Positions 8,267 through 63,830 of a stretch of DNA of 64,000 nucleotides are shown here, in pieces (the stretch's first letter is position 1; every line of letters starts with the position of its first letter). Source of the DNA: Ruminococcus sp. (GTDB lineage: Bacteria > Bacillota > Clostridia > Oscillospirales > Ruminococcaceae); NCBI GenBank assembly GCA_017620025.1, contig JAFZRF010000003.1:83336-147335 (forward strand), written 5' to 3'. A model generated the notes under the pieces. That model ran no database searches. It worked only from the letters and a program-made list of their open reading frames with translations, and was not told where the DNA came from. Both the position numbers and the translations under genes were made by a program.

Positions 8267-10354
8267 TTAGCGGTTTATAGTTACCTTGAGGCACTCCTTG
8301 CCGTTGAGCTTACAGCTCAGTGCGTCCGGCTGGGAGGTGCCGGCATAGAGTGTGAATTCTCCGCTCTTTACGGATCTTACACCCTGTGCATCAACTGTTG
8401 TGAAAGCGCTTTCCGGGATCTTTACCTCCACGGTGATGCTTTCGCCCTTTTCCAGTGATACTCTCCTGAAACCACAGAGACTGTGATTCGGGACAGCGTC
8501 CTCACTGTAGCTCTTGATGTAGAACTGAACCACATCCTCAGCGGCAGAGCTTCCGCTGTTGGTAACAGTTACGGAAGCGATTCCGTCAGAGAACTTCAGA
8601 TCAGAGCAGTTTATATCTGAATATGTAAGACCGAAGCCGAAGGGATAAAGAACATTATCCTCGTCGTATCTTACATAACGATATGTACGGTTTACCATGC
8701 TGTAGTCGGTGAATTCCGGAAGGAGCGAAGCGTCCTTGTAGAAGGTGACGGGAAGCTTTCCGGAGGGAGAGGTCTTTCCGAAGAGGATATTGGCAAGTGC
8801 CTTGCCTCCTGCCTGACCGGGATACCATGCATGGATGAGTGCATCGCAGTCAGCCTCGACATTTATCGCACTGCCTGCGGCGGTAACGATGATTACGGGC
8901 TTTCCGACTGCCATTACGGCTTTAACGAGCTTTCTCTGAGCCTCGGGGAGCCTGAGATCGTTCTTGTCTCCGGAGGAGAACTCGTTTCCGGTATCTCCCT
9001 CTTCGCCCTCGATGCCTGCGTCAAGTCCTACACAGAGGATAACGACATCGGAATGCTCAGCTACTATCTCAGCCTCAGCGATCCTGTCATCAGCCATACC
9101 GAGATTCATTACACGGTCTTTATAGAGATGACTTCCGACTGAGGTGTAGACCTTTCCGTCAAATTCGTCCTGTATGCCTTCGAGGAAGGTGATATACCTG
9201 TCTGCTGTGCCGTTGTAGTTGCCCTCGAGAGCAGCACGGCTGTCGGCATTGGGACCGATAACTCCGATAGACTTGATCTTGTTCCTGTCAAGCGGGAGTA
9301 TACCGTTGTTTTTCAGCATTACCATCGATCTCTCAGCACACTTCAGAGCGTACTCAACGTGCTCCTTGCATGATACGATGGAATAATCAAGTCCGTCGTA
9401 CTCCGTACCGCCGTCGAACATTCCGAGACGTACTCTTGTTCGCATCAGCTTGATGCAGGCGTTCCTGATATCTTCCTCTGAGATGAGCCCTTCGTTGTAA
9501 GCGATGAGCAGATGGATATATGTATTGCCGCAGTTGAGATCGCAGCCGGCCTTGAGGGCCATGGCAGCTGATTCCGGTGCGGTCTTGGTTACGTGGTGAC
9601 TTGTGTGGAAATCACGGATGGCCCAGCAGTCTGAAACGAAGTGTCCGTCGAATCCCCATTCCTTAAGCTTTTCCATAAGGAAGGTATTCGCACAGGCAGG
9701 TTCTCCGTTGACCCTGTTGTATGCTCCCATGACGCTCTCGACCCTGGCTTCCTTTACAAGAGCCTCGAAAGCGGGAATGTAAGTCTCTTCCATATCCTTC
9801 GGGGAAGCAACGGCATCGAATTCGTGCCTTACTGCTTCGGGTCCGCTGTGGACTGCGAAGTGCTTTGCACAGGCAGCAGCCTTGAGGACTTCCTTGTCTC
9901 CCTGGATTCCCTTTACGAATGATACGCCGAGTCTTGCAGTCAGGAACGGATCTTCACCGTAGGTCTCCTGACCTCTGCCCCAGCGGGGATCACGGAAGAT
10001 GTTTATATTGGGTGACCAGAGTGTCAGACCTTTGTATATATCCCTGTCTTCGTGTGCTGAATACTCATTGTACTTTGCACGCGCTTCGTCAGAGATGATA
10101 TCACCTATCTTGAACATGGCCTCTTCATCGAACATTGCAGCCAGACCGATCGCCTGAGGGAACATGGTAGCTGTACCTGCTCTTGCAACGCCGTGAAGGC
10201 CTTCGCTCCACCAGTTGTATGCGGGAATATCAAATCCGGGCACTGCGGGTGCATCATATCTGAGCTGGGAAGCCTGTTCCTCAAGGGAAAGGCGGTCAGT
10301 CAGATCAGTCGCACGCTCGAGCGCCGTGAGCGACTTGTCTTTATATCTTTCCAA
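8267..10354 (-). CDS. GH3 family beta-xylosidase / beta-glucosidase
   Basis: A 695-residue cytoplasmic (no signal peptide) GH3 enzyme with the (beta/alpha)8 domain, the alpha/beta sandwich domain and a C-terminal fibronectin-III-like domain. NWWSEGLHGVARAG and KHFAVHSGPEAVRHEFDA are family signatures, and the catalytic nucleophile is Asp242 in FVSDCWA. The pattern is closest to the xylan 1,4-beta-xylosidase branch, but beta-glucosidase activity is possible. I chose the TTG at 10354: CGAAAGGAGA lies 7 bases upstream, whereas the ATG at 10390 has no such site and would overlap the preceding gene. It probably hydrolyses oligosaccharides taken up by the adjacent importer. Confidence 0.9.
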   Translation of the reverse strand: MERYKDKSLTALERATDLTDRLSLEEQASQLRYDAPAVPGFDIPAYNWWSEGLHGVARAGTATMFPQAIGLAAMFDEEAMFKIGDIISDEARAKYNEYSAHEDRDIYKGLTLWSPNINIFRDPRWGRGQETYGEDPFLTARLGVSFVKGIQGDKEVLKAAACAKHFAVHSGPEAVRHEFDAVASPKDMEETYIPAFEALVKEARVESVMGAYNRVNGEPACANTFLMEKLKEWGFDGHFVSDCWAIRDFHTSHHVTKTAPESAAMALKAGCDLNCGNTYIHLLIAYNEGLISEEDIRNACIKLMRTRVRLGMFDGGTEYDGLDYSIVSCKEHVEYALKCAERSMVMLKNNGILPLDRNKIKSIGVIGPNADSRAALEGNYNGTADRYITFLEGIQDEFDGKVYTSVGSHLYKDRVMNLGMADDRIAEAEIVAEHSDVVILCVGLDAGIEGEEGDTGNEFSSGDKNDLRLPEAQRKLVKAVMAVGKPVIIVTAAGSAINVEADCDALIHAWYPGQAGGKALANILFGKTSPSGKLPVTFYKDASLLPEFTDYSMVNRTYRYVRYDEDNVLYPFGFGLTYSDINCSDLKFSDGIASVTVTNSGSSAAEDVVQFYIKSYSEDAVPNHSLCGFRRVSLEKGESITVEVKIPESAFTTVDAQGVRSVKSGEFTLYAGTSQPDALSCKLNGKECLKVTINR

Positions 10355-51250: not shown

Positions 51251-51931
51251 TTATTGCCTGTCGTAGTACTTCTTTCCGGCATTCGGGCGGAAGTAGGTGC
51301 GGATATAGCCGTCCTTGGAGAGTACGACAAATTCATTCGTGGCTTCGATGTAGTAGATATAGTCGCCGTCCTCGGCCTCGGTCTTGTTGAGTGCCTCAGG
51401 ATTGTTGATAACATCGCTCGCACCCTTTTCATACTCTGTTGCGTCTGCATAGCCGAAGTCATTCTTGAACTCACCGCCGTGCTTTTCCCAGTGCTGGTTG
51501 AGGAGCTTCTTGCTGCGGAAGTGGTACTCCACATAGGAGGAGTCATCCCAGTCCGTCCAGCTCTCGGTAACGGCTTCGGTAGTGGTATCGATGACGTATT
51601 CCTCGGTCGGCTTCTGAGTTTTCGCCGCCTTGGTGGCCTTGGGGGCTTTAGTGGTCTTTGCAGCCTTCGTTGTCTTTTCCTGTGCCGCTGTAGTCTTTGC
51701 GGGCTTTGTTGTCTGCTCCTGAGCTTCTGTAGCTTCCTCCGTTTCCGGCTCAGCAGCTTCAGTCCCGCCCTCTGTTACAACCTCAAGGCTGACAGCAGGG
51801 GAGGTGACTACCTCCGGGAGATCTTCCTCCGGTGTATTATGGCGCTTGCCGGCAGCCGAGCCTGCGACAAATCCGATAACGAATATGACAGCAACGGCAA
51901 TCAGTACGGCAGCGAGCTTTTTATTGTTCAA
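51251..51931 (-). CDS. Membrane-anchored protein with Thr/Lys-rich linker and toxin-nuclease-like C-terminus
   Basis: A 226-residue protein. One N-terminal membrane helix (~6-25), a Thr/Lys/Ala-rich linker with repeated TTKAAK-type units (~65-105), and a C-terminal domain (~130-226) containing HWEKHGGEF, a DATEYEKGASDVINNP segment, EDGDYIYYIEATNEFVVLS and DGYIRTYFRP...YYDRQ. That spacing of residues resembles the small RNase domains found at the C-terminus of polymorphic toxins (BECR-like fold), from memory of the pattern. The TTG at 51931 is the likely start: AAAGGAGTG lies 8 bases upstream, inside the longer frame. It precedes uvrC by 9 bases. Role unknown; no immunity gene is evident nearby. 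Confidence 0.7.
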   Translation of the reverse strand: MNNKKLAAVLIAVAVIFVIGFVAGSAAGKRHNTPEEDLPEVVTSPAVSLEVVTEGGTEAAEPETEEATEAQEQTTKPAKTTAAQEKTTKAAKTTKAPKATKAAKTQKPTEEYVIDTTTEAVTESWTDWDDSSYVEYHFRSKKLLNQHWEKHGGEFKNDFGYADATEYEKGASDVINNPEALNKTEAEDGDYIYYIEATNEFVVLSKDGYIRTYFRPNAGKKYYDRQ

Positions 51932-51967
51932 ACGGATCACTCCTTTATTATCATTATGATAATTCAA

Positions 51968-52194
51968 TTATAAATGAAAGCGGCATTTCTGTCAAGCGCC
52001 GGAATGCCTGTTCTCCGCTTTGTAATCTTTAGTAACCGCACGATGACCGTTCTGAAAACCTGTGTTAATTACCATGACGGATATGTGAAAAATAGGCGAA
52101 AAACTCGGAAGCACTTGAAAAATAAGGGATTTTATGGTAAAATTACTGTGAGCGCATAACGCTCAGAGGGATATTCTTACAGGGGGAATGACTT
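51968..52194. promoter_or_regulatory. Divergent intergenic region with the promoter of the ten-gene operon
   Basis: On the plus strand TTGAAA (52115-52120) and TAAAAT (52138-52143) are 17 bases apart. A GAGCG/CGCTC hairpin (52150-52164) and AGGGGG (52181-52186) follow. No other promoter close to consensus was found on the plus strand until the operon ends near 63800. Confidence 0.7.
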
Positions 52195-52944
52195 TTGAAA
52201 AGGACCTTCGCCGCCGCAGCGGCTCTTATAGTCTGTACCGCAGCCTTCACCGGATGCAGCGGAAAACAGACCGGCAGCGCACCGGCAGTGCAGACCGCAG
52301 CACCGGATGCCTCGCCTGTTATAGACTTCACCGCAGGATACCTGTCGATCGACGATCCTTTATCGCCGCCGCAGTATCCGAAAAGCTACTACCCGTCGAG
52401 CCGCAGCATAGTCGGCAGGATAAACTGCTGCTTTGACGTGCCGGTGGGATTCCGACGCACCTTCGAGGACGAGAACAGCTATCTCGTACAGTATTCCGAC
52501 CCCTCCGGCGTGAACATAATCACCGCCGAGAGCTGGAACGGCTATACCTACGATGAGGTGTATCAGGAGCTGAAGCATTCGCTCTCCGGCAGATACTCAC
52601 CGGAGAACATGAAGACTGAGGAGAACGTAACGGTCGGAAAGTATGACTATACTGCCCACTGCATCAGCCTGATAAACGACAGCGGCACGATGAAGAAGAA
52701 CATGATGATATGGATAATCGACAAGCCCGTCGAGGACGACGAGTATGAACGTGACTCGGACGGCAGCTACATATACGAAACCGACAAGGACACGGGTGAA
52801 CGTGTGAAGAAGCTCACAAGCAGATACTGCTTCACTTTCGCCGTTGAATCGGCCGAGGAGAACACCGAGGGCATGATGAAGACGGCGCTCAGCTTCGTGA
52901 CGACCCGTGAGGACATGGAAAAGGAGGGTATATACCTTGGATAG
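52195..52944 (+). CDS. Lipoprotein, first gene of the SEDS-PBP-GTPase operon
   Basis: A 249-residue secreted lipoprotein: signal MKRTFAAAAALIVCTAAFTGC with the lipid cysteine at 21, an Ala/Pro/Thr-rich spacer and a ~190-residue domain of unknown family (CCFDVPVGFRRTFEDENSYLVQYSDPSG). It resembles PsbP- or PrsW-associated solute-type domains only loosely; I make no call. The start is TTG, with AGGGGGA 8 bases upstream; an ATG at 52188 is out of frame. Its end overlaps the dockerin gene by eight bases. Confidence 0.78.
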   Translation: MKRTFAAAAALIVCTAAFTGCSGKQTGSAPAVQTAAPDASPVIDFTAGYLSIDDPLSPPQYPKSYYPSSRSIVGRINCCFDVPVGFRRTFEDENSYLVQYSDPSGVNIITAESWNGYTYDEVYQELKHSLSGRYSPENMKTEENVTVGKYDYTAHCISLINDSGTMKKNMMIWIIDKPVEDDEYERDSDGSYIYETDKDTGERVKKLTSRYCFTFAVESAEENTEGMMKTALSFVTTREDMEKEGIYLG

Positions 52945-53347
52945 AGCACGCAAGAACAGCATCCTCAGGATACTCTGGTTCTTTTCAGCCGTTGCGGCCA
53001 TGATATTCATATGGTCACGTCCGTCAGCAGTATCACTGTTCCCCGCACAGTCGCTTTCTCAGCAGACATCTCAGGGGCAGCCTGCACAGGGTGAGCCTTC
53101 ACTGATACTCGGCGACCTCAACAAGGACGGCGTACTTGACGCCGCAGACGTACTGGCACTGCAGAACATCTACCTCAGGGGCGAGACCTCTCTTACAGCA
53201 GAGGAACAGCTCCAGATAGCCGATATAAACGCCGACGGCATCGTTGATACCTCTGATTCGGCACTGCTCACGGCTTACCTCGCCGACAGCACCATAGACC
53301 ACGGCACCCTTTCTCTCCGTGACTATGCCGGCAGGTACACAGGCTGA
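52937..53347 (+). CDS. Small membrane-anchored dockerin protein
   Basis: A 136-residue protein with a single N-terminal membrane helix (ILRILWFFSAVAAMIFIWSR, ~10-29), a Ser/Gln/Pro-rich spacer and a complete dockerin (~57-120) with calcium loops DLNKDGVLDAADVLAL and DINADGIVDTSDSALL. There is no catalytic domain. With the basic N-terminus inside, the dockerin would face the cell surface and could bind a cohesin of a scaffoldin. The start is TTG at 52937 with AAGGAGGG 8 bases before it, overlapping the previous gene, so it is translationally coupled. Dockerins are usually on secreted enzymes, so a membrane-anchored one inside a cell-wall operon is unusual. Confidence 0.82.
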   Translation: MDRARKNSILRILWFFSAVAAMIFIWSRPSAVSLFPAQSLSQQTSQGQPAQGEPSLILGDLNKDGVLDAADVLALQNIYLRGETSLTAEEQLQIADINADGIVDTSDSALLTAYLADSTIDHGTLSLRDYAGRYTG

Positions 53348-53366
53348 GCGTATCAAGGAGAATGAA

Positions 53367-54863
53367 ATGACCGTAAAAAGAACAATAGCCGCCCTGACGG
53401 CGTTTGCAGCCCTGACAGGTTCCTGCGGCTGCGGAAGGACTGTCAGCTCGGCCTCACCCGAGCCGCATCAGATAGACGGCACGGTGGATATCAGCTTCTT
53501 CACCGAGGAGCATATCCCGGAGCCTGAGCCTCCGCTGCCCGAGGACCCGCTGTATGATACCGTCATAAGCGCAAAGAACGGCACTCCGCTCGCACAGCTC
53601 TCAAGCGGCAAGTGGGAGCGCACCGAGCTTGGAAACAGCTTTCCGCAGCTCGTTGACAGAATAACAGAGAACGCAGTTGCAGGTCCCGGTATAACCTATG
53701 ACCTGACACTCGATACCGATAAGGGTCTGCGCATACTCGACAGGCTCACTTCCTATACCCGTAACGACGGACACGGCATAGACGGCTGTGTCATAGTCTC
53801 CGAGCCGGACGGCACGGTTGACGCCATAGTCAACAGCGCCCCGCATATGAAGGCTGATGACCCGGAGGAGGACGAAAAGACTCTCCTTAAACAGAACAAC
53901 TATTTCTCCACCCCGCAGCTCATCGGAAGTACGGCGAAGATACTCGTATCAGCTGCAATGCTTGAGACCGGGGCAGAGCAGTACTACTCCGACCCCGGAG
54001 CAATACATATCTACGACCGCTCGTTCAGCAACTGGGATATTGACGGCAGAGGCTACGGCTACAATGTTGACCGCAATCTCTTCGGTACGCAGTATGACGG
54101 CGTTTACAGCAGCTTCGGAGCATTTGCCTTCTCGAGCAACACCTACTTCATCAATGCCCTCAGGACAATGGGCTATGATACCTTTGCGCCGGTATACAAC
54201 AAGTATTTCGGCTTCAATTCCGACGGCAACGACCGCAAGGGCTATATTCTCGGCACTGACTGGGACAAGATAGTGCAGCCGGATATCTCAGCGCTCAAAG
54301 CCCGTGATGACGACAGCGAGGACACAAAGAACGTCCGTGACCGTCAGACAGCCTTTTTTGCCATCGGTATGTGCAACTCCGACGGCATTGACGAGAGAGT
54401 ATCCCTGATGTACATGAACGCTGTTACCGGAGCGATAGCAAGCGGACAGATGCACTCTCCCCGCATAAATACGGCTACCGACGTGCAGACCGTACCGGGT
54501 ACGGAACCGCTTTCCGATACTGTCAGGGACGGTATGTGGTCGCTGATGTACGAGGATGCGATATACTCAAACTGCTCACCAGCAGACGGCTATGACTTCT
54601 ATATAAAGACCGGTTCGGCAAGCACATGGTACGTTGAGGACGGCGTGGAAAAGCCTCTCGAGTGCCTTACCATTACCGGCTTCATAGCTCATGGCACAGA
54701 GCCCATGAAGGTCATAACCCTCTTCGTCCACAACGGCGCAGATTTCGCCGAATACTTCACGGATGAGGACGGCAATACACAGTATTCCATCTATGCCTCG
54801 AGCTTCGTGCCGCTCTACCGTGAGATAGCAGCAATTGCTGCGGAAACGGGGGGAGCTGTATGA
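53367..54863 (+). CDS. Penicillin-binding-protein-like transpeptidase (lipoprotein)
   Basis: A 498-residue protein with all three active-site motifs of penicillin-binding transpeptidases: SxxK as STAK (S188, K191), SxN as SSN (S256-N258) and KTG as KTGS (K414-G416). Between them the folds typical of class B PBPs can be followed, but the N-terminal pedestal domain is very short. In place of a membrane helix there is a lipoprotein-like signal (ALTAFAALTGSCGCG). The ATG at 53367 follows AAGGAG by 6 bases. A SEDS protein in the same operon is the expected partner, as for FtsW-FtsI and RodA-PBP2. D,D-transpeptidase activity is inferred from motifs. Confidence 0.82.
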   Translation: MTVKRTIAALTAFAALTGSCGCGRTVSSASPEPHQIDGTVDISFFTEEHIPEPEPPLPEDPLYDTVISAKNGTPLAQLSSGKWERTELGNSFPQLVDRITENAVAGPGITYDLTLDTDKGLRILDRLTSYTRNDGHGIDGCVIVSEPDGTVDAIVNSAPHMKADDPEEDEKTLLKQNNYFSTPQLIGSTAKILVSAAMLETGAEQYYSDPGAIHIYDRSFSNWDIDGRGYGYNVDRNLFGTQYDGVYSSFGAFAFSSNTYFINALRTMGYDTFAPVYNKYFGFNSDGNDRKGYILGTDWDKIVQPDISALKARDDDSEDTKNVRDRQTAFFAIGMCNSDGIDERVSLMYMNAVTGAIASGQMHSPRINTATDVQTVPGTEPLSDTVRDGMWSLMYEDAIYSNCSPADGYDFYIKTGSASTWYVEDGVEKPLECLTITGFIAHGTEPMKVITLFVHNGADFAEYFTDEDGNTQYSIYASSFVPLYREIAAIAAETGGAV

Positions 54864-56140
54864 TCTGGACATTATTTTTCGCACTTGTCATACTCCTGAT
54901 ACTCGGCACTCTCCTCTGGGCAAGAGGCATCAGGTATCGCAAGGGACTCCATATCCACATGAAGCTCGGTGATTCCGAGGTAACTCCCGTGCTTTCCGAA
55001 TCCGGACATACCATGTTCGATATCGGCGGAAAGACCGGTATGCTCCTCAGGGGCGAGAACGGCGTGGTGCAGATAAGCTACGGCGACAGCGATGAGGATC
55101 TCCGCTGGCTAAGAGGCTACCGCTACGGCGAGGGCGCTCCTAAGCTTCGTGTTGTCGGCACTACCATGACAAACCGTATGCCGTACCGCAGATTCATGAT
55201 ACTCATGATCGCAGCACTGCTCGTTGCCGCATTCATCGGCTTCGGCATCTTCCGCATCACAAGAGTCGGCAAGCTTCTCGGACGTGCGCTCACCTCAGAG
55301 GTTCAGCATTCTGCTTCGGCTGATGTGATAGAGGACAAGGATATAACGAGCATCCTGATCGCCGTTACAGGCGAGGACGGAGCTCCCGATATGATAAAGA
55401 CAGCAGTCTTCAACAAGCGCAGCAAGTCAGTCAAGCTGCTAACTCTCCTCGGCGATACTCAGGTATCTCACGGGGGAAGGCTCTGCCGTCTTGCAGAAGT
55501 CCCCGGACAGGAGCTTTCTGCCGCAGTCGAGGACACATTCTCGATTAAAGTTGATGAGACGCTGATACTTGATGACAAGGCCTTTGTAAAGGTGATCGAC
55601 AGCCTCGGCGGTGTGACCGTTGAGATGTCAAAGGCAGAGGCAGAGCAGGTAAACACTATCCTCACTGCAAGATACGGGGAGGACTGTACGCTCCTTGACA
55701 CCGCACGCCTTTTCTCCGGAAAGGAAGAGAACAGGAAGGTGCGCTGCGACGGCAAGCAGGCTTACTGCCTGACCGCAGTAACATCAACAGGCGCAAAGCC
55801 GGATAACGACTACGTCCGCACCGAGCGTGAGGACAGGGTGATAAATGCCGTTGCCACACGCCGCAGCCTTTCAAAGCTGCTGCTTTCCACCTCACGCTTC
55901 AGCGAGGCAGCCGACGGCACGGCAACGAGCCTTTCCACCGGAGACCTTCTGAAGCTCGGCTTTGATACGGCCTCCTACTGGCGTGATTACCGTGATTCCT
56001 ACAGGAGCGCCGGCAGCATACGCCTTCCCGTTACCTGTCAGGAGCTCTACAGCACCGACGGCACCCGTACGCTCTACACCTATCCCGCACAGCTGAGACA
56101 GGCTGTGATACGAATAATCTGCTATGATATGAAGGGGTGA
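54860..56140 (+). CDS. LCP (LytR-CpsA-Psr) family protein, divergent
   Basis: A 426-residue protein with two membrane helices (~2-20 and ~112-132) separated by a ~90-residue cytosolic or small beta domain, followed by an LCP-like extracellular domain: DITSILIAV, then FSIKVDETLILDDKAFVKVIDSLGGVTVEM (the core LCP strand-helix unit), GKQAYCLTA and DYVRTEREDRVINAV (the arginine-rich end motif). LCP proteins attach teichoic acid or capsule glycopolymers from polyprenyl phosphate to peptidoglycan. The usual RD of IPRDT is replaced by GD (LLGDT), so binding of the pyrophosphate may be altered. ATGA overlap with the PBP gene. Confidence 0.78.
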   Translation: MIWTLFFALVILLILGTLLWARGIRYRKGLHIHMKLGDSEVTPVLSESGHTMFDIGGKTGMLLRGENGVVQISYGDSDEDLRWLRGYRYGEGAPKLRVVGTTMTNRMPYRRFMILMIAALLVAAFIGFGIFRITRVGKLLGRALTSEVQHSASADVIEDKDITSILIAVTGEDGAPDMIKTAVFNKRSKSVKLLTLLGDTQVSHGGRLCRLAEVPGQELSAAVEDTFSIKVDETLILDDKAFVKVIDSLGGVTVEMSKAEAEQVNTILTARYGEDCTLLDTARLFSGKEENRKVRCDGKQAYCLTAVTSTGAKPDNDYVRTEREDRVINAVATRRSLSKLLLSTSRFSEAADGTATSLSTGDLLKLGFDTASYWRDYRDSYRSAGSIRLPVTCQELYSTDGTRTLYTYPAQLRQAVIRIICYDMKG

Positions 56141-56144
56141 TCCG

Positions 56145-57557
56145 ATGGCAGAAAGAGAAATAATGAACACCGCAGTATCAGGTGCGAGAAATCTTCGCTC
56201 CGACATACTGTGGGCTGTAAAGCAGTTCAAGTACCTTATGTACTTTTTTGCGCCGGAGGTCATCCTTCTTGTGACCTCGGTCATATATTTCGCACGCAAC
56301 TCATTGCTCTCATCACCGCTCTATGCGGCGGTATTCATACTGTTCCTGATCATCGGCATAGCTGTCAAGGCGGCAGCTCTCAGCTTCGGAACAGGTCTTA
56401 CCGGAGACAGTCTTGCCCTTGCGGTGATCGCATTCTTTACCGCAATGGGGGAGCTTGGCATATTCTTCCAGCTCTATATACGTACACTCACACCGAATGA
56501 GATAAAGAAGCTCGTCATGCTTGCACTGGGCTGTACCTTCCTGTGTGCAGTTCTCACAGTAAACGCTGTCCCGGAGCTTAAGGCTAAGGTCGAGTCCTTC
56601 CGTCCGCTGAAGGCGTTCCTGCGCCGTGCAAGAGCATCGAAGGCAAAGGATCCGAGGTGGTACTGGTTCAGCACCGGTATGCTCCTTCTCGGTGCGGCTG
56701 TCTTCATGCTGATCCTGGCGGCTGTGATATTCAGACACAGCTTCGGTATGCAGCTCAGGCTCATCGAGACCGCAAAGTTCCTTGCAGTCATCTCCATAGC
56801 TGCCCTTGAGACCGTGCCTGCGGGCAGGGGCAAGGGCGCAGGCAGCTTCATCAGCAATAATGCGGTATTTGCAGTCTGCGTACCGACTATGGCTTTCCTT
56901 GCGCTGACCGGAGAGTTCGGAACGGTGATGATACTTCTTTTCTTCTACCTGACTGGTCTTCTCCTCACAGGCCGCTACAGGCTTGCGGCGCTCTCGGCAG
57001 CGATAGTTGTTGCCGGAGGAGTATTCATCTATATGTTCTTCCCGGAGAACAGTCATATCTACCAGAGACTTTTTGATATAACCGCCTTCGACCAGGTGAA
57101 CCTCGTCCGCGAGGAGCTTGCCGAAAGGACATACATCTGGCCGAACCCAAACCGCTATGACGTGTATATCGGCGGAGAGCTAGCCACACGCTGTGAGGAT
57201 TTCAGCTTCCTGAATATGCTCACCGTACTCGGCAAGCTTGCGGCAGTCATCATACTTGCCGCCTATCTTGCACTCACGCTGATACCGGCAGTGAAGCTCA
57301 GTACCGCAGGGGAGAAGAATTTCACCTCACGTGCGGGATTCTACGGAGCAGTTATGCTGCTCAGCTCCTGCGCCGTACACTGCATGGCAAACGTCGCAGC
57401 ATTCTTCTTCACCGGCGTGGGTCTTCCCTTCGTCAGTGACGGTATAACGAATCTTGTTTTCTCAGTGATATACATATGCCTTATTTCCCTTTCACTGAGC
57501 CGCAGAAAGGAGTCAGTCTATGAAACAGCTGAAGAAGCCGGATCTGTCGGCGGCTAA
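56145..57557 (+). CDS. Divergent SEDS family (FtsW/RodA-like) membrane protein
   Basis: A 470-residue protein with about ten membrane helices. It matches SEDS peptidoglycan polymerases at several points: LRLIETAKFLAVISIAALE (for the QPSEF.K helix), LTGEFGTVMILLFFYLTGLL (for the PDxGT helix), CEDFSFLNMLTVLGKLAAVI (for the DFIFAVIGEE helix) and FTGVGLPFVSDGITN (for the GPLPFISYGGSS loop). The last replaces YGG with DGI, so it is a divergent branch. It would polymerise lipid II or a related lipid-linked sugar with the PBP encoded two genes upstream. The stop overlaps the next gene by 38 bases. Confidence 0.8.
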   Translation: MAEREIMNTAVSGARNLRSDILWAVKQFKYLMYFFAPEVILLVTSVIYFARNSLLSSPLYAAVFILFLIIGIAVKAAALSFGTGLTGDSLALAVIAFFTAMGELGIFFQLYIRTLTPNEIKKLVMLALGCTFLCAVLTVNAVPELKAKVESFRPLKAFLRRARASKAKDPRWYWFSTGMLLLGAAVFMLILAAVIFRHSFGMQLRLIETAKFLAVISIAALETVPAGRGKGAGSFISNNAVFAVCVPTMAFLALTGEFGTVMILLFFYLTGLLLTGRYRLAALSAAIVVAGGVFIYMFFPENSHIYQRLFDITAFDQVNLVREELAERTYIWPNPNRYDVYIGGELATRCEDFSFLNMLTVLGKLAAVIILAAYLALTLIPAVKLSTAGEKNFTSRAGFYGAVMLLSSCAVHCMANVAAFFFTGVGLPFVSDGITNLVFSVIYICLISLSLSRRKESVYETAEEAGSVGG

Positions 57558-58764
57558 GCAGCGTGTGCGCTCTGCCCCGACTGCCGCAGCAGCTATAGCT
57601 GTCGGAGCTGTTGTTTTCTGCTTTACCGCATACTACAGCTTTTTCCCGAAGGCTCCGCTCTTCACGGTCAACGAGGCTGACACGCTCTCCGATGACAGCG
57701 CAGTCTCCGAGGCACTCGCAGCCATGAGCCTTGCACGCAGCAATCTGCGCAGCGAGCACTACGCCGCAAAGCTCACCGGAAAGGGATACAGCTATTTCCC
57801 GCATCGCAGCGGCATCTATGACTATTCCGGCAATCTCTGCTATGACAGCACTACAGCCGTGAATGAGGTGAGCTCAGTCTCCTCCGCAAGGAGCCGTGCG
57901 ATGCTCTGCCGGTATCTCTACGGCGATGTCAATGCAGGCGGCCTTGAGGGCTATCTCCGCTACGACAGGGGAACAGGCGAGGGCTGCTCGGTAACTCTTA
58001 CTCTCCGCCCTCAGCTTGAGGAGAGCGTATATATGCTCCTGAAATACAACGGCATCCTCGGCGGCTGCATCATACAGGACACAGCCACCGGCGAGATACA
58101 GACCATGTGTGCGACGAGTACAACAGGCATCGACCGGGAGGTCAGCGGCTGTACTCAGTTTGAGGCGAATATCAGCGCAGCCGTTTTCGACAAGCTTGGC
58201 ATCACGGCGGAGGAGGCTTCATCGTCCTTTGATTACCGCCGCAGCTTCACAGCGTCATTCGACGACGAGAAGGGCGAGATGATATCCTCCTACGGCTTCA
58301 TGACGGATTTCGGAGTACTCTCCGAACCTGCCGGAGACGACGGCAAGCCCGTGCCTAAGGACGAGGCTCTTGCAAAGCCGCTCTCTGACGGCTATATCAG
58401 CCCCCTGCATCTGTGCAGCACGGTCCAGCGTATATGGTCCGGCAAGGGCTGTATGCCCGTTCTTACTTCATCCGTTTCCGACAGCGCCGGACAGCCCGTC
58501 ACTCTTCCCGTGAACACACCGGAGGAGATACCGCAGGAGCTCTGCGAGCGGGCAAAAGGCTTCTTTGCACCTGTGCCGGGCCTTACATCTGATATGCGCA
58601 TAGTAAAGAACACCGGCGACGGAGTAAAGTATACCGCCGGCGTGATAACTACTCCCGAGGGCAGGAGCAAGGCATTCGTGCTCTACAGTCAGGAGGACAG
58701 CAGGATAAACCTGCTCACACCCTGCATAGCCTATTTCATAGAACATTCTGAGGAGGTCAACTGA
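57520..58764 (+). CDS. PBP-like protein lacking catalytic motifs
   Basis: A 414-residue single-pass membrane protein (helix ~24-45, VGAVVFCFTAYYSFFP). The segment VTLTLRPQLEESVYMLLKYNGILGGCIIQDTATGEIQTMC matches the start of the transpeptidase domain of class B PBPs (T-D-L-Q...G-A-V-V-I-P-T-G-x-I-L-A-M). No SxxK, SxN or KTG triad is present, and the protein ends early, so it is probably an inactive relative. Pairs of active and inactive PBP-like proteins can act as allosteric partners for SEDS enzymes; that role is inference. Starts at 57520 with AAAGGAG 9 bases upstream, and its stop overlaps the next start as TGATG. Confidence 0.72.
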   Translation: MKQLKKPDLSAAKQRVRSAPTAAAAIAVGAVVFCFTAYYSFFPKAPLFTVNEADTLSDDSAVSEALAAMSLARSNLRSEHYAAKLTGKGYSYFPHRSGIYDYSGNLCYDSTTAVNEVSSVSSARSRAMLCRYLYGDVNAGGLEGYLRYDRGTGEGCSVTLTLRPQLEESVYMLLKYNGILGGCIIQDTATGEIQTMCATSTTGIDREVSGCTQFEANISAAVFDKLGITAEEASSSFDYRRSFTASFDDEKGEMISSYGFMTDFGVLSEPAGDDGKPVPKDEALAKPLSDGYISPLHLCSTVQRIWSGKGCMPVLTSSVSDSAGQPVTLPVNTPEEIPQELCERAKGFFAPVPGLTSDMRIVKNTGDGVKYTAGVITTPEGRSKAFVLYSQEDSRINLLTPCIAYFIEHSEEVN

Positions 58765-59915
58765 TGGCGAAGAACAAAAAACGCACCGGAACATTCAGAA
58801 CGATACTGCTTATGATCATCGTGACTCTGATCTCTCTTACCGGCGCAGCGCTCCACGCAGGCCTTTCGACCGGCTATATAACAGCGAATTACACAACAAG
58901 GGATATGCTTTCGGCTCTCCTTGACAGAGACAGGACAGCACCGCTGTTCACTATCGTCAACAGCTCTGATCAGAGATATCCTTCACTTCACAGTGCATTC
59001 AGGACTTCCCTCGGCAGGAACCTTCTCTATCTCTGTCTCTTCTTCGGCGTGGCTATGGTGATATACCTGCTCATCACTCTGATTGCGGACTGGATAAGCT
59101 CCGCAGCAGGAAAGCGCAAGCCCGCAGCAAAGAATACCAACGCACAGAATACACAGGTGCGTCCCGCCGTACCTCCGCAGCCCCAGCAGCCCTATCAGGC
59201 TCCTCCGGTATCACCCTATGCTCCGCAGCAGGGCTATCCCGGATACGCACCGCAGAGCCCTTATGCACAGCCCGGCGGCTATGTACCTCCGCAGCCAGTT
59301 GCTCCGGCACCGGCAGCTCCCGCTGCTGCACCGAAGACGCCTGAAACAGTCGCAGCAGGCAGCAGCTCCACAGGCTCAAGAGGCGCTAAGACGATGAAGC
59401 TCCGCCGTGAAGCGATTGCAGAGCGTGCAGCGGCATCAGCAGCCGCAGCCGTACCCGCACCAGAGCCGGTTATACCCGAGCCTGAGGATACCGGCATCGC
59501 TGCATTCCTCAGACACGCTTCCATAATCGTATACACGGATATACAGGAGAACGGCAGGCTTGTCCGCTACTACATGGCAAACACCGTGCCTGATATAGAC
59601 GGAAAGGACTTCCAGAACGACAAGATACGCCAGTTCATGCAGTTCAACCACCGCAACACCATATTCGCCGCCTCGGACGGCAGCGGCAGGCTTCGCACTG
59701 ATCTCAGGTTTCCGAAGAATCTGAGACTCCAGTACAGCGAGGAGTACGAAGTATTCCAGCTTGCCTGCGGAGAGCGTGCGATAAGCGCCGACAACACAGC
59801 GGCAGTGCAGTCCGTTGATCTTGTATATTACGAAGAAAACGAGGCATACCGTGATAAGTATGTCCGTGATGTAACGATGTGCGACAGGGATTATCACATC
59901 GAGATAGCATACTGA
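58764..59915 (+). CDS. Two-TM protein with proline-rich linker and cytosolic domain
   Basis: A 383-residue protein. Two membrane helices (~10-30 and ~92-112) enclose a short outside loop; a Pro/Gln/Tyr-rich linker (~125-205, with repeated YAPQ-, PPQP- and AYP-type units) leads to a Ser/Ala-rich segment and a C-terminal domain of about 135 residues (~250-383: IAAFLRHASIIVYTDIQENGRLVRYYM). Both ends should be in the cytosol. It is joined to the PBP-like gene (TGATG overlap) and to the GTPase gene 13 bases downstream. It could be the link between the wall machinery and the GTPase, but the family is unknown to me. Confidence 0.68.
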   Translation: MAKNKKRTGTFRTILLMIIVTLISLTGAALHAGLSTGYITANYTTRDMLSALLDRDRTAPLFTIVNSSDQRYPSLHSAFRTSLGRNLLYLCLFFGVAMVIYLLITLIADWISSAAGKRKPAAKNTNAQNTQVRPAVPPQPQQPYQAPPVSPYAPQQGYPGYAPQSPYAQPGGYVPPQPVAPAPAAPAAAPKTPETVAAGSSSTGSRGAKTMKLRREAIAERAAASAAAAVPAPEPVIPEPEDTGIAAFLRHASIIVYTDIQENGRLVRYYMANTVPDIDGKDFQNDKIRQFMQFNHRNTIFAASDGSGRLRTDLRFPKNLRLQYSEEYEVFQLACGERAISADNTAAVQSVDLVYYEENEAYRDKYVRDVTMCDRDYHIEIAY

Positions 59916-59928
59916 GGAGGGGAAGGAA

Positions 59929-61380
59929 ATGAAATACTGTCCATACTGTAATGACGACAAGGAGGGACTGCGCTTTGCGCTGACCCGTGACGATCTCCTT
60001 CTCATGTTCAACGAGGACGAGCTTGCCGCCAAGAAGGAATACCTGATCGACCCCGTACTCTCCGGAGAGGACGGCACTCTGAAAAAATACGGCATCGACG
60101 CCTCGGACGATGACTGCCTCCGTGTGCTGTTCAGCCAGAACGTCATCCCCGATATCATCCGTGACAAGGTGAGCGTTGACAGGGTATCGGCATCGAATGT
60201 CCGTGACCATGTCTCCATAGGCGGTTTTGTTGCCGATATCAGGAGCAAGGGCGGACGTCCCACCCCGCTGATGACAGTAGCCTGCGGCAACTGTCACCTC
60301 ATACTCCCGAATGAGTATGCTGACGAGAACGGCCCCGACGCAAGGGGAAAGAGCGTTAACATATCCCTGATATCCAACGTAGGCGGCAGCAAGACTGCTC
60401 TTGCCATATCCCTTTACTACCGCTTCAAGGAGAAGGGCAACACTATCAATATGGCAGAGCCGTTCTTCAACAGCTATTACAAGGGGCTCGAGGCTATGCT
60501 CGCAAAGCGCATGGCTCCCGGAGCTACACACGGATCCAAGACTCCGTGCCTTACAATAAAATTCCGAAACAGCAAGCGTGAGATAACCGATATCCACATT
60601 ACGGACACCGCCGGAGAAATTCTCGGCAAGGATCCCGAGAGAAAGGATATCGTGGGAGAGGTAAGGGACTTCCGTCCGGCTGTTGAGTCGGATATGCTCA
60701 TCGTCATAGTTGACAGCGATGACAAGAGCCGTATCTCGCTCACACGTCTTGAGAGCTATCTTGAAGAGCTCAAGGTCAAGCTCGCCGGAAAGACGAAGCC
60801 CACCAAGATCATACTCTGCTTCTCGAAGTGTGACCGCTATCCCGACCACGCCGCTGCAAGCATGATAACCGATTATCAGGGCTGGAAGGACAACTGGAAG
60901 AAGAAGGGGCTCGATTATGAGAACCTTATCAATCTCCGCAAGCACCTGATGTCCGCAGACGACTCCTACTTCATGACCGGCAGCTTCTACGAGAAGGAAC
61001 CGCCGAAGCCCTCCGCTGTTGAGTACATCGAGGAATTCATCGACGGCACCGAAGAGCCGGGCTTCGATATTGACATCGATATACCGGTAGGGGAAGAGAC
61101 TCCGGCAGAGACACCTGCTGTGGAGGCGGTTGCAGAAGATACGGCTGAGAACGTACCGGAGGAGGAGCAGACTGTCTCTGAGCCGGATGATATCGATACC
61201 GTTCATTATCTCCGCTCACTCAGGGTATGCTGCAACGAGATATCCGATTATTCCGTAAAGTACGCCTGTGTTGCGCCGTTCGGAACCGATGTGTCCGACA
61301 GCAGGCTCAGGAACAGATATGCCCCGATGTATATCGAGGATCTTATTGAGACCATCAAAGTCTATGGAGGTATAAGGTGA
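59929..61380 (+). CDS. Zinc-ribbon TRAFAC-like GTPase with degenerate P-loop
   Basis: A 483-residue cytosolic protein. CPYC (4-7) and CGNC (~118-121) can form a split zinc ribbon. The G domain follows: an altered P-loop ISNVGGSKTAL (K155, T156, but Ser in place of the Gly before Lys), DTAG (D226-G229) as the G3 motif, and FSKCD (S299-D302) in place of NKxD. Together these favour a GTPase of the TRAFAC class; the order zinc ribbon plus G domain recalls the large GTPases of predicted conflict systems. An acidic Pro/Glu-rich stretch (~360-430) precedes a C-terminal helical part. GGAGGGGAAGG precedes the ATG. It overlaps the next start as TGATG. Confidence 0.72.
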   Translation: MKYCPYCNDDKEGLRFALTRDDLLLMFNEDELAAKKEYLIDPVLSGEDGTLKKYGIDASDDDCLRVLFSQNVIPDIIRDKVSVDRVSASNVRDHVSIGGFVADIRSKGGRPTPLMTVACGNCHLILPNEYADENGPDARGKSVNISLISNVGGSKTALAISLYYRFKEKGNTINMAEPFFNSYYKGLEAMLAKRMAPGATHGSKTPCLTIKFRNSKREITDIHITDTAGEILGKDPERKDIVGEVRDFRPAVESDMLIVIVDSDDKSRISLTRLESYLEELKVKLAGKTKPTKIILCFSKCDRYPDHAAASMITDYQGWKDNWKKKGLDYENLINLRKHLMSADDSYFMTGSFYEKEPPKPSAVEYIEEFIDGTEEPGFDIDIDIPVGEETPAETPAVEAVAEDTAENVPEEEQTVSEPDDIDTVHYLRSLRVCCNEISDYSVKYACVAPFGTDVSDSRLRNRYAPMYIEDLIETIKVYGGIR

Positions 61381-62627
61381 TGAAGCTCATTTACACAAGA
61401 CCTTCAAAGGACGCCGGATGGTCATGGCTCAGGGACGACGGAAGAACTCCCGCCGACAACCGCTATCAGGCTCTCGTTCCGCTGCTTCAGCGACTCGAGG
61501 AAAGACGCTCTGCATATTTCGTCTGCACCGAGGATCACAAGGTGCTTGAGATATTCAAATCCCACGGCAAGAAGGTAGACGAGAGAGAGAACTTCGTCTG
61601 CACCGTTGAGGAGTATACCACGAAGCAGGACGAGGAATACGGCAGAAAGCTGATACTCGCCCTTCTGCACAACAGCGGCAGCTTTGCCGTGCCGGAGGAC
61701 AGGCTCCTTCCGGCGATGACCTATGCCTGCCGCAGACTGCCTTCACGCTACGCCCGCAGAATACAGCTCTGCGAGGAGGACTTCCCGGGAATGATGACTG
61801 CCGAGCTGCTGAAGCATGATCCTCCGCCCGAGGAAAAGGTGCCGGCAGACAGCACACACTGGATAATGTACCTTCCGCAGTTCGACGACGGAGCGGAGAG
61901 ACTCGTTGACAGGCTCTGCCGTGATAATTCCGGCTATGTACCGGAGCATATGCTCCAGTTCTTCGCCTACCTCAACGGAGCGCCCTTCCGCATCGAATGG
62001 CAGAACTCCTTTATACGCTTTTTCAGCGGCTCACCGGACATCAGCTTCGGCCTGGTGAAGAACTTCATAGATATGATACGCCCATCCATTACGGATCCGC
62101 TTGAGATATTCGGCATGATACGCAATTACCCGGCCGAGGCATGGCGTGATATGTGGGTGGATATCTCCCGTGAGCATTTCTCCGGCGGACTCAAGCCGGA
62201 GCAGAATATGTACGAGCTCTATCAGAAGCCGCTCGATTCCTATCCGGCACGTTTCCGTATGGCAGTAAGGAACAATATCGCACTCGGTATGCCTCTTGAC
62301 GACGCCTCACCGGAGGACCTCTACCGCATCTACTGTGACGCAGTTGATATGGAGGTGCCGACTCCGCTGCTCCTTGCAGTGCTCGGACGTGACGAGAATT
62401 CCATGTCGATAATCGGCCTTGTATCGCCGGATTCGGCAAACGTCAGCGGCATAGTACCGGCAGTCCTCTATCTCTACGGAGAGCTCTCAATGAAGGACTG
62501 CATAGAACTCTACGGCGACAGACAGCTCGCCAAGACCATGACCGACCATGTGACGGAGCTCTGTCTCCCGCCGCTTCTCCAGAAGAAGGCATTGAAGAAG
62601 ATAACAGCGCTTATCAGTAAGGAGTGA
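61380..62627 (+). CDS. Hypothetical GTPase-linked protein
   Basis: A 415-residue soluble protein with no signal peptide or membrane helix. The N-terminal part (MKLIYTRPSKDAGWSWL, ~1-90) may form a small alpha/beta domain and the rest is mostly helical. The start overlaps the GTPase stop codon (TGATG); a GTG at 61377 is an alternative, and GGAGG at 61366 serves both. This tight coupling implies a shared function, for example a GTPase-binding or effector protein, but no family or active site is recognised. Confidence 0.68.
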   Translation: MKLIYTRPSKDAGWSWLRDDGRTPADNRYQALVPLLQRLEERRSAYFVCTEDHKVLEIFKSHGKKVDERENFVCTVEEYTTKQDEEYGRKLILALLHNSGSFAVPEDRLLPAMTYACRRLPSRYARRIQLCEEDFPGMMTAELLKHDPPPEEKVPADSTHWIMYLPQFDDGAERLVDRLCRDNSGYVPEHMLQFFAYLNGAPFRIEWQNSFIRFFSGSPDISFGLVKNFIDMIRPSITDPLEIFGMIRNYPAEAWRDMWVDISREHFSGGLKPEQNMYELYQKPLDSYPARFRMAVRNNIALGMPLDDASPEDLYRIYCDAVDMEVPTPLLLAVLGRDENSMSIIGLVSPDSANVSGIVPAVLYLYGELSMKDCIELYGDRQLAKTMTDHVTELCLPPLLQKKALKKITALISKE

Positions 62628-62632
62628 TGACA

Positions 62633-63799
62633 ATGAAGAAAAGGCTTACAGCAGCCGCACTTGCTGCGCTTTTCCTGCTCAGCGGCTGTGATGCCCTCGG
62701 AGGCGTCATAAGCGATAATCCTCCTGTAGAGGTCAGTGACGGAGAGAGAGCAGCTCTCTCGAAGAAGCTGAAATACCTGCCGCTGACGGAGATGCTCTAC
62801 GGTACAGAGACGACTGATGAGCAGCTCGATGCTCTTGACGCACAGTTCACCGCCAAGGAAGAGGAGTATGATACGGCTATCAAGGCAGCTCTTGCGGAGC
62901 GTCAGACCTTCTGTGAGACGAGCTTCCTCCCGCAGAAGACAGTTCCCGGGCTCAGCAGCTATTCTCCGCTCACTTCCGTATTCTACAATAACAGTACAGC
63001 CATAGGCATAAATCCGGTAGTGCTCGCAGACCTCCTCACCGAGGGTGCCCGCAGCAGCAAGAGCACCGCATATACAGGCTTTGCGCCGGAGCACGATTAT
63101 TCAGTCAATGCCCCGAGGGTATACGAGAACCGCAACGATCTTATCCGTGAAGCGCTTAGTACCTACATCTCTCCGGAGACAGATTTCAGTGTTACCTACT
63201 ATAAATCCGAGAACCTCTACTGCGTGAACTTTGTATCAGCGGAGAAGGATCTTATAGTATCGGCAATGTATTTCCATTTCAGCGATGACGGTACTCTTGA
63301 CAGGGGCGGTATGGATCAGGTGATATATACCGGCCGTGAACTGCTGCTCAACGATCCTGCACACGCAGGGCAGGCGGCACTCAGCTTCCCTGACGGGGAT
63401 ATCTCACGCTACGAGAGTCCTTGCAGTACAGGCAATCTCAGCAGTGTCATCATACGCCTTCTCGGCAGCGCAGTCTCTGAGGACCGCATGGTCACAGGAG
63501 CGAAGATAAAGGCAAACGAGTCCTACAGGGCAGATGCGATCGGCGATTCCGATCTGCTCAAGGGCGTTCACATAGTAAGCTGGTTCGAGCTCGAGAAGGA
63601 GAATCCGACGGAGCCTTCAACGGAGGAGCCGACAGAAGAGACTACTGAGGAGACAACGTCCGAGGAGATTCAGGAGCAGCCTGAGACCGAGGCACCTGCC
63701 GCACAGGAGCAGACAGAAGCGCCTGCCGAGACACCGCAGGAAGAGATATGGACAGAAGCACCGGCCGGTGCTGATGACTCGGAGGCGGGAATATATTAA
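62633..63799 (+). CDS. Lipoprotein, last gene of the SEDS-PBP-GTPase operon
   Basis: A 388-residue lipoprotein (MKKRLTAAALAALFLLSGC, lipid cysteine 19). The mature part begins with a ~310-residue domain of unknown family (FYNNSTAIGINPVVLADLLTEGARSS, YRADAIGDSDLLKGVHIVSWFEL), followed by a Glu/Thr/Pro/Ala-rich C-terminal tail of about 65 residues. The ATG at 62633 is preferred over ATG 62627 because AAGGAG lies 8 bases upstream. With the first gene it brackets the operon by lipoproteins. The extended acidic tail may span the wall. Confidence 0.75.
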   Translation: MKKRLTAAALAALFLLSGCDALGGVISDNPPVEVSDGERAALSKKLKYLPLTEMLYGTETTDEQLDALDAQFTAKEEEYDTAIKAALAERQTFCETSFLPQKTVPGLSSYSPLTSVFYNNSTAIGINPVVLADLLTEGARSSKSTAYTGFAPEHDYSVNAPRVYENRNDLIREALSTYISPETDFSVTYYKSENLYCVNFVSAEKDLIVSAMYFHFSDDGTLDRGGMDQVIYTGRELLLNDPAHAGQAALSFPDGDISRYESPCSTGNLSSVIIRLLGSAVSEDRMVTGAKIKANESYRADAIGDSDLLKGVHIVSWFELEKENPTEPSTEEPTEETTEETTSEEIQEQPETEAPAAQEQTEAPAETPQEEIWTEAPAGADDSEAGIY

Positions 63800-63806
63800 G
63801 AAAAAA

Positions 63807-63830
63807 AGGCGTTCCAAGAATGGAATGCCT
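63807..63830 (-). terminator. Terminator facing left between the operon and the IS element
   Basis: AGGCATTCCA pairs with TGGAACGCCT on the minus strand, followed by TTTTTTTCTTAA. It has no T run on the plus strand. It would stop transcripts entering from the IS30-like element and, as a 3' hairpin, would also end the operon mRNA. Confidence 0.7.

Follow-up and report, generated by a model that had tools for sequence, protein, structure and literature searches.

What would a bacterium build from a divergent SEDS protein, a penicillin-binding protein (PBP) that has lost its active site, a dockerin, and a GTPase encoded side by side? The question is raised by ten adjacent genes (g1–g10) in a stretch of 64,000 nucleotides from Ruminococcus sp. 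(contig JAFZRF010000003.1, positions 83,336 to 147,335 of the forward strand; hereafter the window). An original prediction described these genes as one operon for accessory wall synthesis or anchoring, driven by a cytosolic GTPase and linked to the cellulosome. We confirm the observation and find its interpretation partly supported. The ten genes are kept together across genera, and the reading that we tentatively favor, with a confidence that stays somewhat short of even, is a wall synthase docked at the membrane and switched by GTP. The operon may give the cell a novel means of sensing its wall or of regulating how the wall is built.

Conservation and selection of the gene set

All ten open reading frames (ORFs) lie on the + strand between positions 52195 and 63799, each where it had been predicted, and they are as co-directional and closely packed as originally claimed. 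Specifically, neighbors overlap by 38, 29, 4, 38, 1, 4, and 4 bases, with the remaining gaps measuring 4 and 13 bases.

A search of other genomes bears out the claim of one conserved gene set, as it recovers the complete ten-gene order in four other genomes. Among these, L012 is a locus of an uncultured Ruminococcus metagenome-assembled genome (84–96% identity to the window genes) and L009 is from another species of the window's genus (27–52%), while L022 comes from another genus of the family (17–37%) and L034 from a second species of that genus (20–38%). The order is kept in part, from g3 to g10, at L023 in a third genus, where g3 is cut by the contig start and position alone identifies g4 and g7. 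In this copy, an extra gene for a two-helix membrane protein (L023:5425-6831) lies between g6 and g7, and no helix is present in the protein at the g7 position; here, two genes may share out the hairpin and the cytosolic part of g7. Outside L012, identities go down to 15–52%. In L022, nine of the ten genes match those of the window by blastp at E ≤ 2e-6 (E values that refer to the ORFs of this locus only). The g7 proteins of L022 and L034 match each other (1e-72) and have no significant blastp match to that of the window; the L022 copy was equated with it by position and two-helix topology, a pattern that L034 also shows.

Comparing the window with L012 gives ratios of nonsynonymous to synonymous substitution rates (dN/dS) of 0.04–0.21 across the ten genes, which indicates purifying selection on all of them. 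The genes that flank the operon differ between genera. Within the genus, a gene that we take to be of the HAD type lies two genes upstream of the operon in the window and directly upstream in L009 (65% identity between the two copies), which suggests a shared site. Judged by these comparisons, the ten genes are a conserved set and no chance neighborhood.

Distribution among genomes

The operon is rare, patchy, and found within one family in the samples searched. Searches with single proteins (g8 or g5) both matched 2 of 60 relatives, namely the window's own genome and G028, and a single-protein search of genome contigs found L012 alone. Profiles built from g6 matched 5 of 125 genomes of the genus (3 of them strongly), 6 of 396 in a family sample (5 strongly), and 16 of 391 in a class sample, where the sole strong match was the window's own genome. 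A g8 search matched 5 of 197 family genomes (in one case by way of an unrelated GTPase) and 1 of 128 class genomes (the window's own), while a narrow three-row g9 profile matched 2 of 345 genomes of the order. There are six strong carriers in all (G000, G627, G028, G086, G245, and G805).

Several candidates were rejected. The GTPase match in G097 was dropped as an ORF without the operon around it, and presumably resembles FtsY. Weak g6-profile matches were found at 16 loci in 15 class genomes, in G011 and G623 of the genus, and in G159 of the family. ORFs were taken from 9 of the 16 class loci, with GSxxK in all nine and KTG as well in seven, and the G623 ORF carries both motifs, so that these ORFs appear to be PBPs; the G159 ORF showed neither motif. 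A phage or plasmid origin was also rejected, with tblastn searches of g8 (window copy against phages, L022 copy against plasmids) and g9 (window copy against plasmids) returning no match. Scans of viral contigs with the g8 and g6 family profiles gave no confirmed relative.

A SEDS protein, a dead PBP, and a separate transpeptidase

The original SEDS and PBP assignments (g5; g3 and g6) are supported by profile comparisons against shuffled controls. The g5 protein (56145..57557, + strand) has 11 hydrophobic stretches and keeps EDF and TGVxxPFxSxG motifs. A six-member g5 profile matched the three resident SEDS proteins of the genome at 94.7% (E 6e-8, 234 columns), compared with at most 1.4% for 40 column shuffles, 0.1% for the reversed profile, and 0.3% for MraY. 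Multi-sequence profiles were required, as five-row profiles of g5, g6, and g3 were weak against single resident proteins; for example, g5 reached 63% over 26 columns against one resident SEDS protein. The Asp of the EDF motif is kept in all six copies and aligned with the Asp of the three resident proteins, and it matches D297, the putative catalytic Asp of FtsW (PMC8765783). Among solved structures, the g5 profile matched FtsW at E 0.0036 and 0.0091. In library searches, which for g5 cover five copies (all except L012), TIGR02614 was weakly matched by all five (E 0.0023 to 1.8e-6).

Outside the window, on contig C22 of the same genome (63–67 kb; L003, L011:5979-9119), we also observed a canonical cluster of a SEDS protein and an active PbpA-like PBP (motifs GSTQK and KSGT), together with a protein that we take to be of the FHA type. 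This FtsW-PbpA cluster is a possible relative of the g5–g6 pair.

The g6 gene (57520..58764, + strand) overlaps g5 by 38 bases, and its ORF starts inside the end of g5 in 6/6 copies. It encodes a one-helix PBP-like protein with a dead transpeptidase site: SxxK and KTG are absent and no SxN is recognized in any of the six copies, so that the description "PBP-like protein without motifs" proved right throughout. No Pfam PBP model matched g6 in the window, L022, L023, or L034. Against a nine-member PBP profile, g6 scored 98.4% (40 shuffles, at most 0.2%), in a test that is partly circular since seven members had been found by the g6 class-scan profile and one by the g6 genus scan; three of the 12 ORFs extracted for this set, without KTG or KSG, had been dropped. 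Residues 206–414 of g6, which for most members lie outside the selecting region, gave 57.4% (score 40.2; shuffle maximum 21.6). Furthermore, g6 matched the g3 family at 94.4% (without a shuffle control), and its family profile matched the PBP structure 4mnr at E 0.0013. The L022 reading of g6 used in the alignments starts at 9190, whereas the gene itself probably starts farther downstream, at 9241. Despite the lost active site, g6 has a dN/dS of 0.10 between the window and L012.

By contrast with g6, the lipoprotein-type penicillin-binding transpeptidase g3 (53367..54863, + strand) has the motifs STAK, SSN, and KTG in the window, and STAK, SxN, and KTG are kept in 6/6 copies. Its ORF opens at 53319, with the ATG at 53367 as the preferred start given the AAGGAG upstream and an L009 orthologue that begins there; with this start, the 29-base overlap with g2 disappears. 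PF00905 (cut-off 22.1 bits) was matched at 46.8 bits by the window copy, at 76.5 and 64.4 bits by two orthologues, and at 21.2 bits by the cut L023 copy. The PBP profile was matched at 99.3%, and the solved structure matched was PbpB (E 0.00043).

A DO-GTPase and its partner

The g8 protein (59929..61380, + strand) combines a split zinc ribbon with a TRAFAC GTPase domain. As assessed by motifs and Pfam, it is a DO-GTPase, which upholds the original assignment as a GTPase: the PF19993 (DO-GTPase2) cut-off of 27 bits is passed by 2 of 5 copies tested (L009, 28.6; L034, 28.4), with the window (17.8) and L022 (16.9) below it and L023 without a match. Two CxxC pairs, DTxGE, and [ST]KCD are present in 6/6 copies, and the solved structures matched were of signal recognition particle-type GTPases alone (best E 0.0029). 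The P-loop (60373–60396 in the window) reads GGSKT in the window, L012, and L009, and has the canonical AGKT in L022, L034, and L023; GTP use by g8 may differ between the window's genus and the two other genera.

The g9 gene (61377..62627, + strand) directly follows g8 with an overlap of 1 or 4 bases in all six copies. Three of the five copies scanned (L022, L034, and L023) have a C-terminal hydrophobic helix, which is missing from the window and L009. In L022 (12967-15033) and L034, this helix is followed by a Thr-rich linker and a further conserved domain without an informative library match. Pfam includes GAP1 models, and none of them matched g9 in the window, L009, L022, L023, or L034; library searches gave no informative match for g9 and solved structures nothing credible (best E 0.17). 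The protein is thus termed GAP1-like by position, size, and C-terminal helix only. Among 29 proteins of the window, L022, and L023, we found no FNIII-repeat (GAP1-N2) or GASH (GAP1-N1) protein, and a sub-threshold Fn(III)-type match (PF10179, E 0.052) was seen in g4 of L022.

The original prediction had missed that g8 and g9 resemble a described kind of pair—i.e. a DO-GTPase with a GAP1-like partner. According to Kaur et al. (2020, eLife 9:e52696, PMC7159879), DO-GTPases have zinc ribbons, a conserved Walker B Glu, and GAP1 encoded downstream; this Glu is, in our own reading, that of the DTxGE motif of g8. In GAP1-N2 systems, the partner often has C-terminal transmembrane segments, and the accessory themes described are tubulin, HSP70, and kinase, with none of the wall enzymes of this operon. 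The same text proposes DO-GTPase-GAP1 neighborhoods as conflict systems and already raises the idea that peptidoglycan-binding domains bring such systems into contact with the cell wall. A second source places a DO-GTPase beside a membrane-stress operon (PMC11237479), and in both papers the family is known from genome context.

A membrane dockerin and a possible cellulosome link

The g2 gene (52907..53347, + strand) encodes an N-terminal hydrophobic helix, a linker, and a type I dockerin, and here, too, the original assignment holds (Pfam Dockerin_1, E 1.1e-10). Specifically, the window copy scores 42.0 bits and that of L022 30.5 bits against a PF00404 cut-off of 22.9, and both calcium-binding repeats are present in 5/5 available copies. 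Each of the six carriers has between 4 and 13 cohesin matches and 70–149 dockerin matches (at most 150 candidates scored). In a sample of the family, 93 of 277 genomes have a cohesin match, as do all four carriers it includes (P 0.012), and at least four matches are found in 32 of 277 genomes and again in 4/4 carriers (P 1.5e-4); neither P value allows for kinship, and the cut at four matches was set after the fact. No cohesin match was reported within the operon itself. Together, the dockerin and the cohesins of all six carriers are no more than suggestive of the originally claimed link to the cellulosome, which is indirect.

A degenerate LCP domain and accessory proteins

The g4 protein (54860..56140, + strand) is a two-helix membrane protein with a degenerate LytR-CpsA-Psr (LCP) domain. 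The original LCP assignment stands for the window copy, which scores 36.9 bits against PF03816 (cut-off 24.6), and for the family profile, which matches structure 3pe5_A (E 1e-7). It fails for the four orthologues tested (L009, L022, L023, and L034), none of which matches PF03816. The arginines of the RsD and RDt motifs have a catalytic role in LCP proteins. In g4, there is no Arg at either aligned position in six copies (L023 by position only), with a nearby Arg some columns earlier in L022 and L034 and one column later in L023. On both counts, the known attachment of polymers by LCP proteins, which the original prediction had invoked, is not transferable to g4.

Three further proteins complete the set. 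The g1 gene (52195..52944, + strand) encodes a lipoprotein of 249 aa with an FTGC lipobox and no known domain, with orthologues in L012, L009, L022, and L034. The g7 protein (58764..59915, + strand) is a two-helix hairpin with a long Pro/Ala-rich C-terminal part that is probably cytosolic, a topology read from hydropathy and charges. The last gene, g10 (62624..63799, + strand), encodes a lipoprotein with an LSGC lipobox and an acidic Thr/Glu/Pro-rich tail, and has orthologues in L012, L009, L022, L034, and L023.

Transcription signals and surroundings

The original prediction also placed the ten genes behind one promoter. A promoter-like site (TTGAAA-17 nucleotides-TAAAAT, with TG before the -10; 10/12 consensus match) does lie at 52115..52143 (+ strand), where it is the sole such + strand site between a divergent gene and g1. 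Less favorably, the number of promoter-like sites in the 12.3 kb scanned (11) is not above that of shuffles (8.3 ± 3.1), and a weaker + strand site (9/12) is found within g4 at 54866. A single promoter driving all ten genes is therefore no more than plausible.

The divergent gene (51251-51967, - strand) encodes a protein with Thr/Lys/Ala-rich repeats that is either lipid-anchored or has a single helix, and its own promoter-like site (51995-51967, - strand) is a perfect 12/12 consensus. The signal scan listed no + strand terminator-like site after g10. Just past g10, at 63800-63829, we spotted by eye a hairpin with one mismatch and a T-run on the minus strand, which is likewise absent from the scan list and may serve to terminate a convergent gene that lies past the end of the contig; the contig terminates 201 bases past g10, as does the window. 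The G + C content is 54.7% in the operon and 50.0% across the first 51.2 kb of the window. At L023, the operon is directly followed by a polyketide-type gene cluster (L023:12066-19998), whose genes we take to encode an acyltransferase, a carrier protein, an enoyl-hydratase-like protein, a ketosynthase, and an adenylating enzyme.

A proposed mechanism and its alternatives

How could these proteins work together? In the arrangement that we tentatively favor, the DO-GTPase g8 and its partner g9 would lie beneath the membrane and switch an accessory wall synthase above it. This synthase would consist of the SEDS glycan polymerase g5 held by the catalytically dead, class B-type PBP g6. By analogy with a model in which PBP2 acts on RodA by conformational motion and not by active-site coupling, with crosstalk not excluded (PMC10257715), g6 would retain only an activating or scaffolding role as an allosteric holder, with cross-linking moved to the separate lipoprotein g3. 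The g7 protein, and the C-terminal helix of g9 in other lineages, may couple the GTPase to the membrane complex. The outer subunits would be g4, with its degenerate LCP domain, and the lipoproteins g1 and g10. Finally, g2 may use its membrane-tethered dockerin to bring in a surface protein that carries a cohesin, such that wall would be made or anchored at that site. The full version of this scheme—i.e. a GTP-gated peptidoglycan synthase, with its dead PBP activator and lipoprotein transpeptidase, tethered through the dockerin to the cellulosome and placing wall growth or anchoring at the fiber-degrading machine—strikes us as rather doubtful.

A number of observations weigh against a working synthase. 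First, several of the wall-type proteins (g6, g4, and perhaps g5) appear dead or altered. None of the six g5 copies has a Trp where FtsW carries W138, and all six also lack Tyr379 and the second SYGG Gly; a Gln occupies the Q147 place in 3/6, with the E. coli FtsW positions placed on g5 by motif spacing. In E. coli FtsW, W138A, Y379A, Q147E, and G381D are loss-of-function changes (PMC8765783), and polymerase activity of g5 is doubtful because positions needed there are altered; Tyr379 is likewise absent from the resident RodA and second FtsW. In addition, g5 falls below the PF01098 cut-off (26.4 bits) in 5/5 copies tested, with L022 (23.2) scoring best, followed by L034 (20.1) and L023 (7.7), and with no match for the window and L009. 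Second, the part of g6 that precedes the transpeptidase domain would hold the SEDS-contacting region, and there (residues 60–154) the PBP match is weak (14.9%; score 28.6 against a shuffle maximum of 22.0). Five-row profiles of g6 and g3 gave 1.1% and 2.9%, respectively, against the single resident PbpA, and a structure model of g6 has a predicted local distance difference test (pLDDT) score of 30, from an alignment with two near-identical rows. Third, the window's genome carries its own FtsW, RodA, and FtsW-PbpA pair.

The main rival, and a serious one because several of the enzymes are altered or dead, is a sensor built of pseudo-enzymes, although we regard it as a minority possibility. Here, the altered SEDS protein, dead PBP, and dead LCP would bind precursors or glycan without turnover and report to g8–g9, which would drive the response, with g3 as the one effector enzyme or as a receptor that reacts with beta-lactams. 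Consistent with this, g6 is dead in all six copies, the aligned arginines of g4 are missing, and g5 is without positions needed in FtsW, yet g4–g6 are under purifying selection between the window and L012. A sensor would also fit the g9 copies of L022 and L034, which carry a helix plus an additional domain that is probably outer, and the DO-GTPase reported beside a membrane-stress operon (PMC11237479). On the other hand, the putative catalytic Asp of the SEDS protein is kept in 6/6 copies, g3 looks like a fully equipped enzyme, and the ten window proteins showed no domain of a transcription regulator.

A further possibility, which we find improbable, is that the dockerin is the key component of a cellulosome-anchoring device, with the wall enzymes inserting or remodeling wall so that a scaffoldin with cohesins is held at the cell surface. 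The dockerin in 5/5 copies with the gene visible, and the cohesins in 6/6 carriers (4/4 in the family sample, compared with 93 of 277 genomes), would be expected of such a device. However, the P values behind this enrichment carry the limits given above, the known carriers account for at most four of the 93 genomes with cohesins, and the operon had no cohesin match reported.

Even less probable is a conflict (defense) system of the DO-GTPase-GAP1 kind, in which the wall enzymes would be the effectors, killing a cell under infection or attack or sealing it off. Such a role has been proposed for DO-GTPase-GAP1 neighborhoods (PMC7159879), and the operon is rare and patchy (3 strong matches in 125 genus genomes and 5 in 396 family genomes). 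Nevertheless, the ten window proteins had no match to PADLOC at E values up to 1 and include no toxin-like or nuclease domain, and the gene content is near constant across three genera while the effectors described in that source vary. Lastly, an ordinary extra SEDS-PBP pair, merely co-transcribed with unrelated neighbors whose GTPase, dockerin, and lipoproteins act elsewhere, is very improbable: the canonical FHA-FtsW-PbpA cluster indicates that paralogous pairs occur in this genome, but the order of the operon is kept at 15–52% identity in three genera with different flanking genes.

If the GTP-switched synthase that we favor is correct, it would be a wall-building complex directly controlled by a signaling-type GTPase other than the tubulin-like FtsZ. 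It would also serve as a natural experiment in which activation by a class B PBP is uncoupled from its catalysis, and it would offer a lead on what DO-GTPases do. If the operon is instead a sensor, it would be a receptor assembled from dead wall enzymes. Under either reading, the six genomes make a small, testable set, and as the carriers are dockerin-rich, a tie to surface display of the cellulosome would be of practical interest.

Comparison with known systems

The original statement that no described system has this set stands in the literature searched, in a full-text search that covers few subscription papers. Specifically, we found no work combining SEDS, dockerin, and GTPase, or a TRAFAC GTPase with a PBP and FtsW operon, and none on SEDS with PbpA in Ruminococcus, dockerin with LytR-CpsA-Psr and cellulosome, dockerin with FtsW, or dockerin with PBP in R. 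flavefaciens. The statement does not extend to the GTPase half of the operon, which has a described framework in the GTPase-centric systems of PMC7159879. With these systems, as described there, the operon shares a TRAFAC GTPase with an N-terminal zinc ribbon and Walker B Glu, a partner directly downstream that often has a C-terminal transmembrane segment and an outer domain, membrane-linked accessory genes, and occurrence in firmicutes. It differs in that g9 matches no GAP1 model and no clear FNIII protein is present, and the terms penicillin, FtsW, transpeptidase, LytR, and dockerin are absent from the main text of that paper.

As in cellulosomal dockerin proteins, g2 has a type I dockerin with two calcium-binding repeats, but in g2 the dockerin is the only recognized domain, sits on a membrane anchor, and is encoded in an operon of wall enzymes. 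What g4 shares with LytR-CpsA-Psr transferases is a domain that Pfam detects in the window copy and the family profile detects through its match to 3pe5; unlike them, g4 has no signature arginines and about 90 extra residues between its two helices, and its four tested orthologues have no Pfam LCP match. The closest parallels for g5 and g6 are the synthases of a SEDS protein and a class B PBP, including RodA-PBP2, FtsW-FtsI, and the FHA-FtsW-PbpA cluster of the same genome (L011). These share with the operon a SEDS gene followed by a one-helix PBP gene and, with g5, the landmark Asp and the C-terminal Gly/Pro-Phe/Ser/Gly motif. In the operon, by contrast, the PBP partner is dead and the transpeptidase is a separate lipoprotein, g5 has an extra N-terminal region and altered loops, and a GTPase and its partner are encoded alongside.

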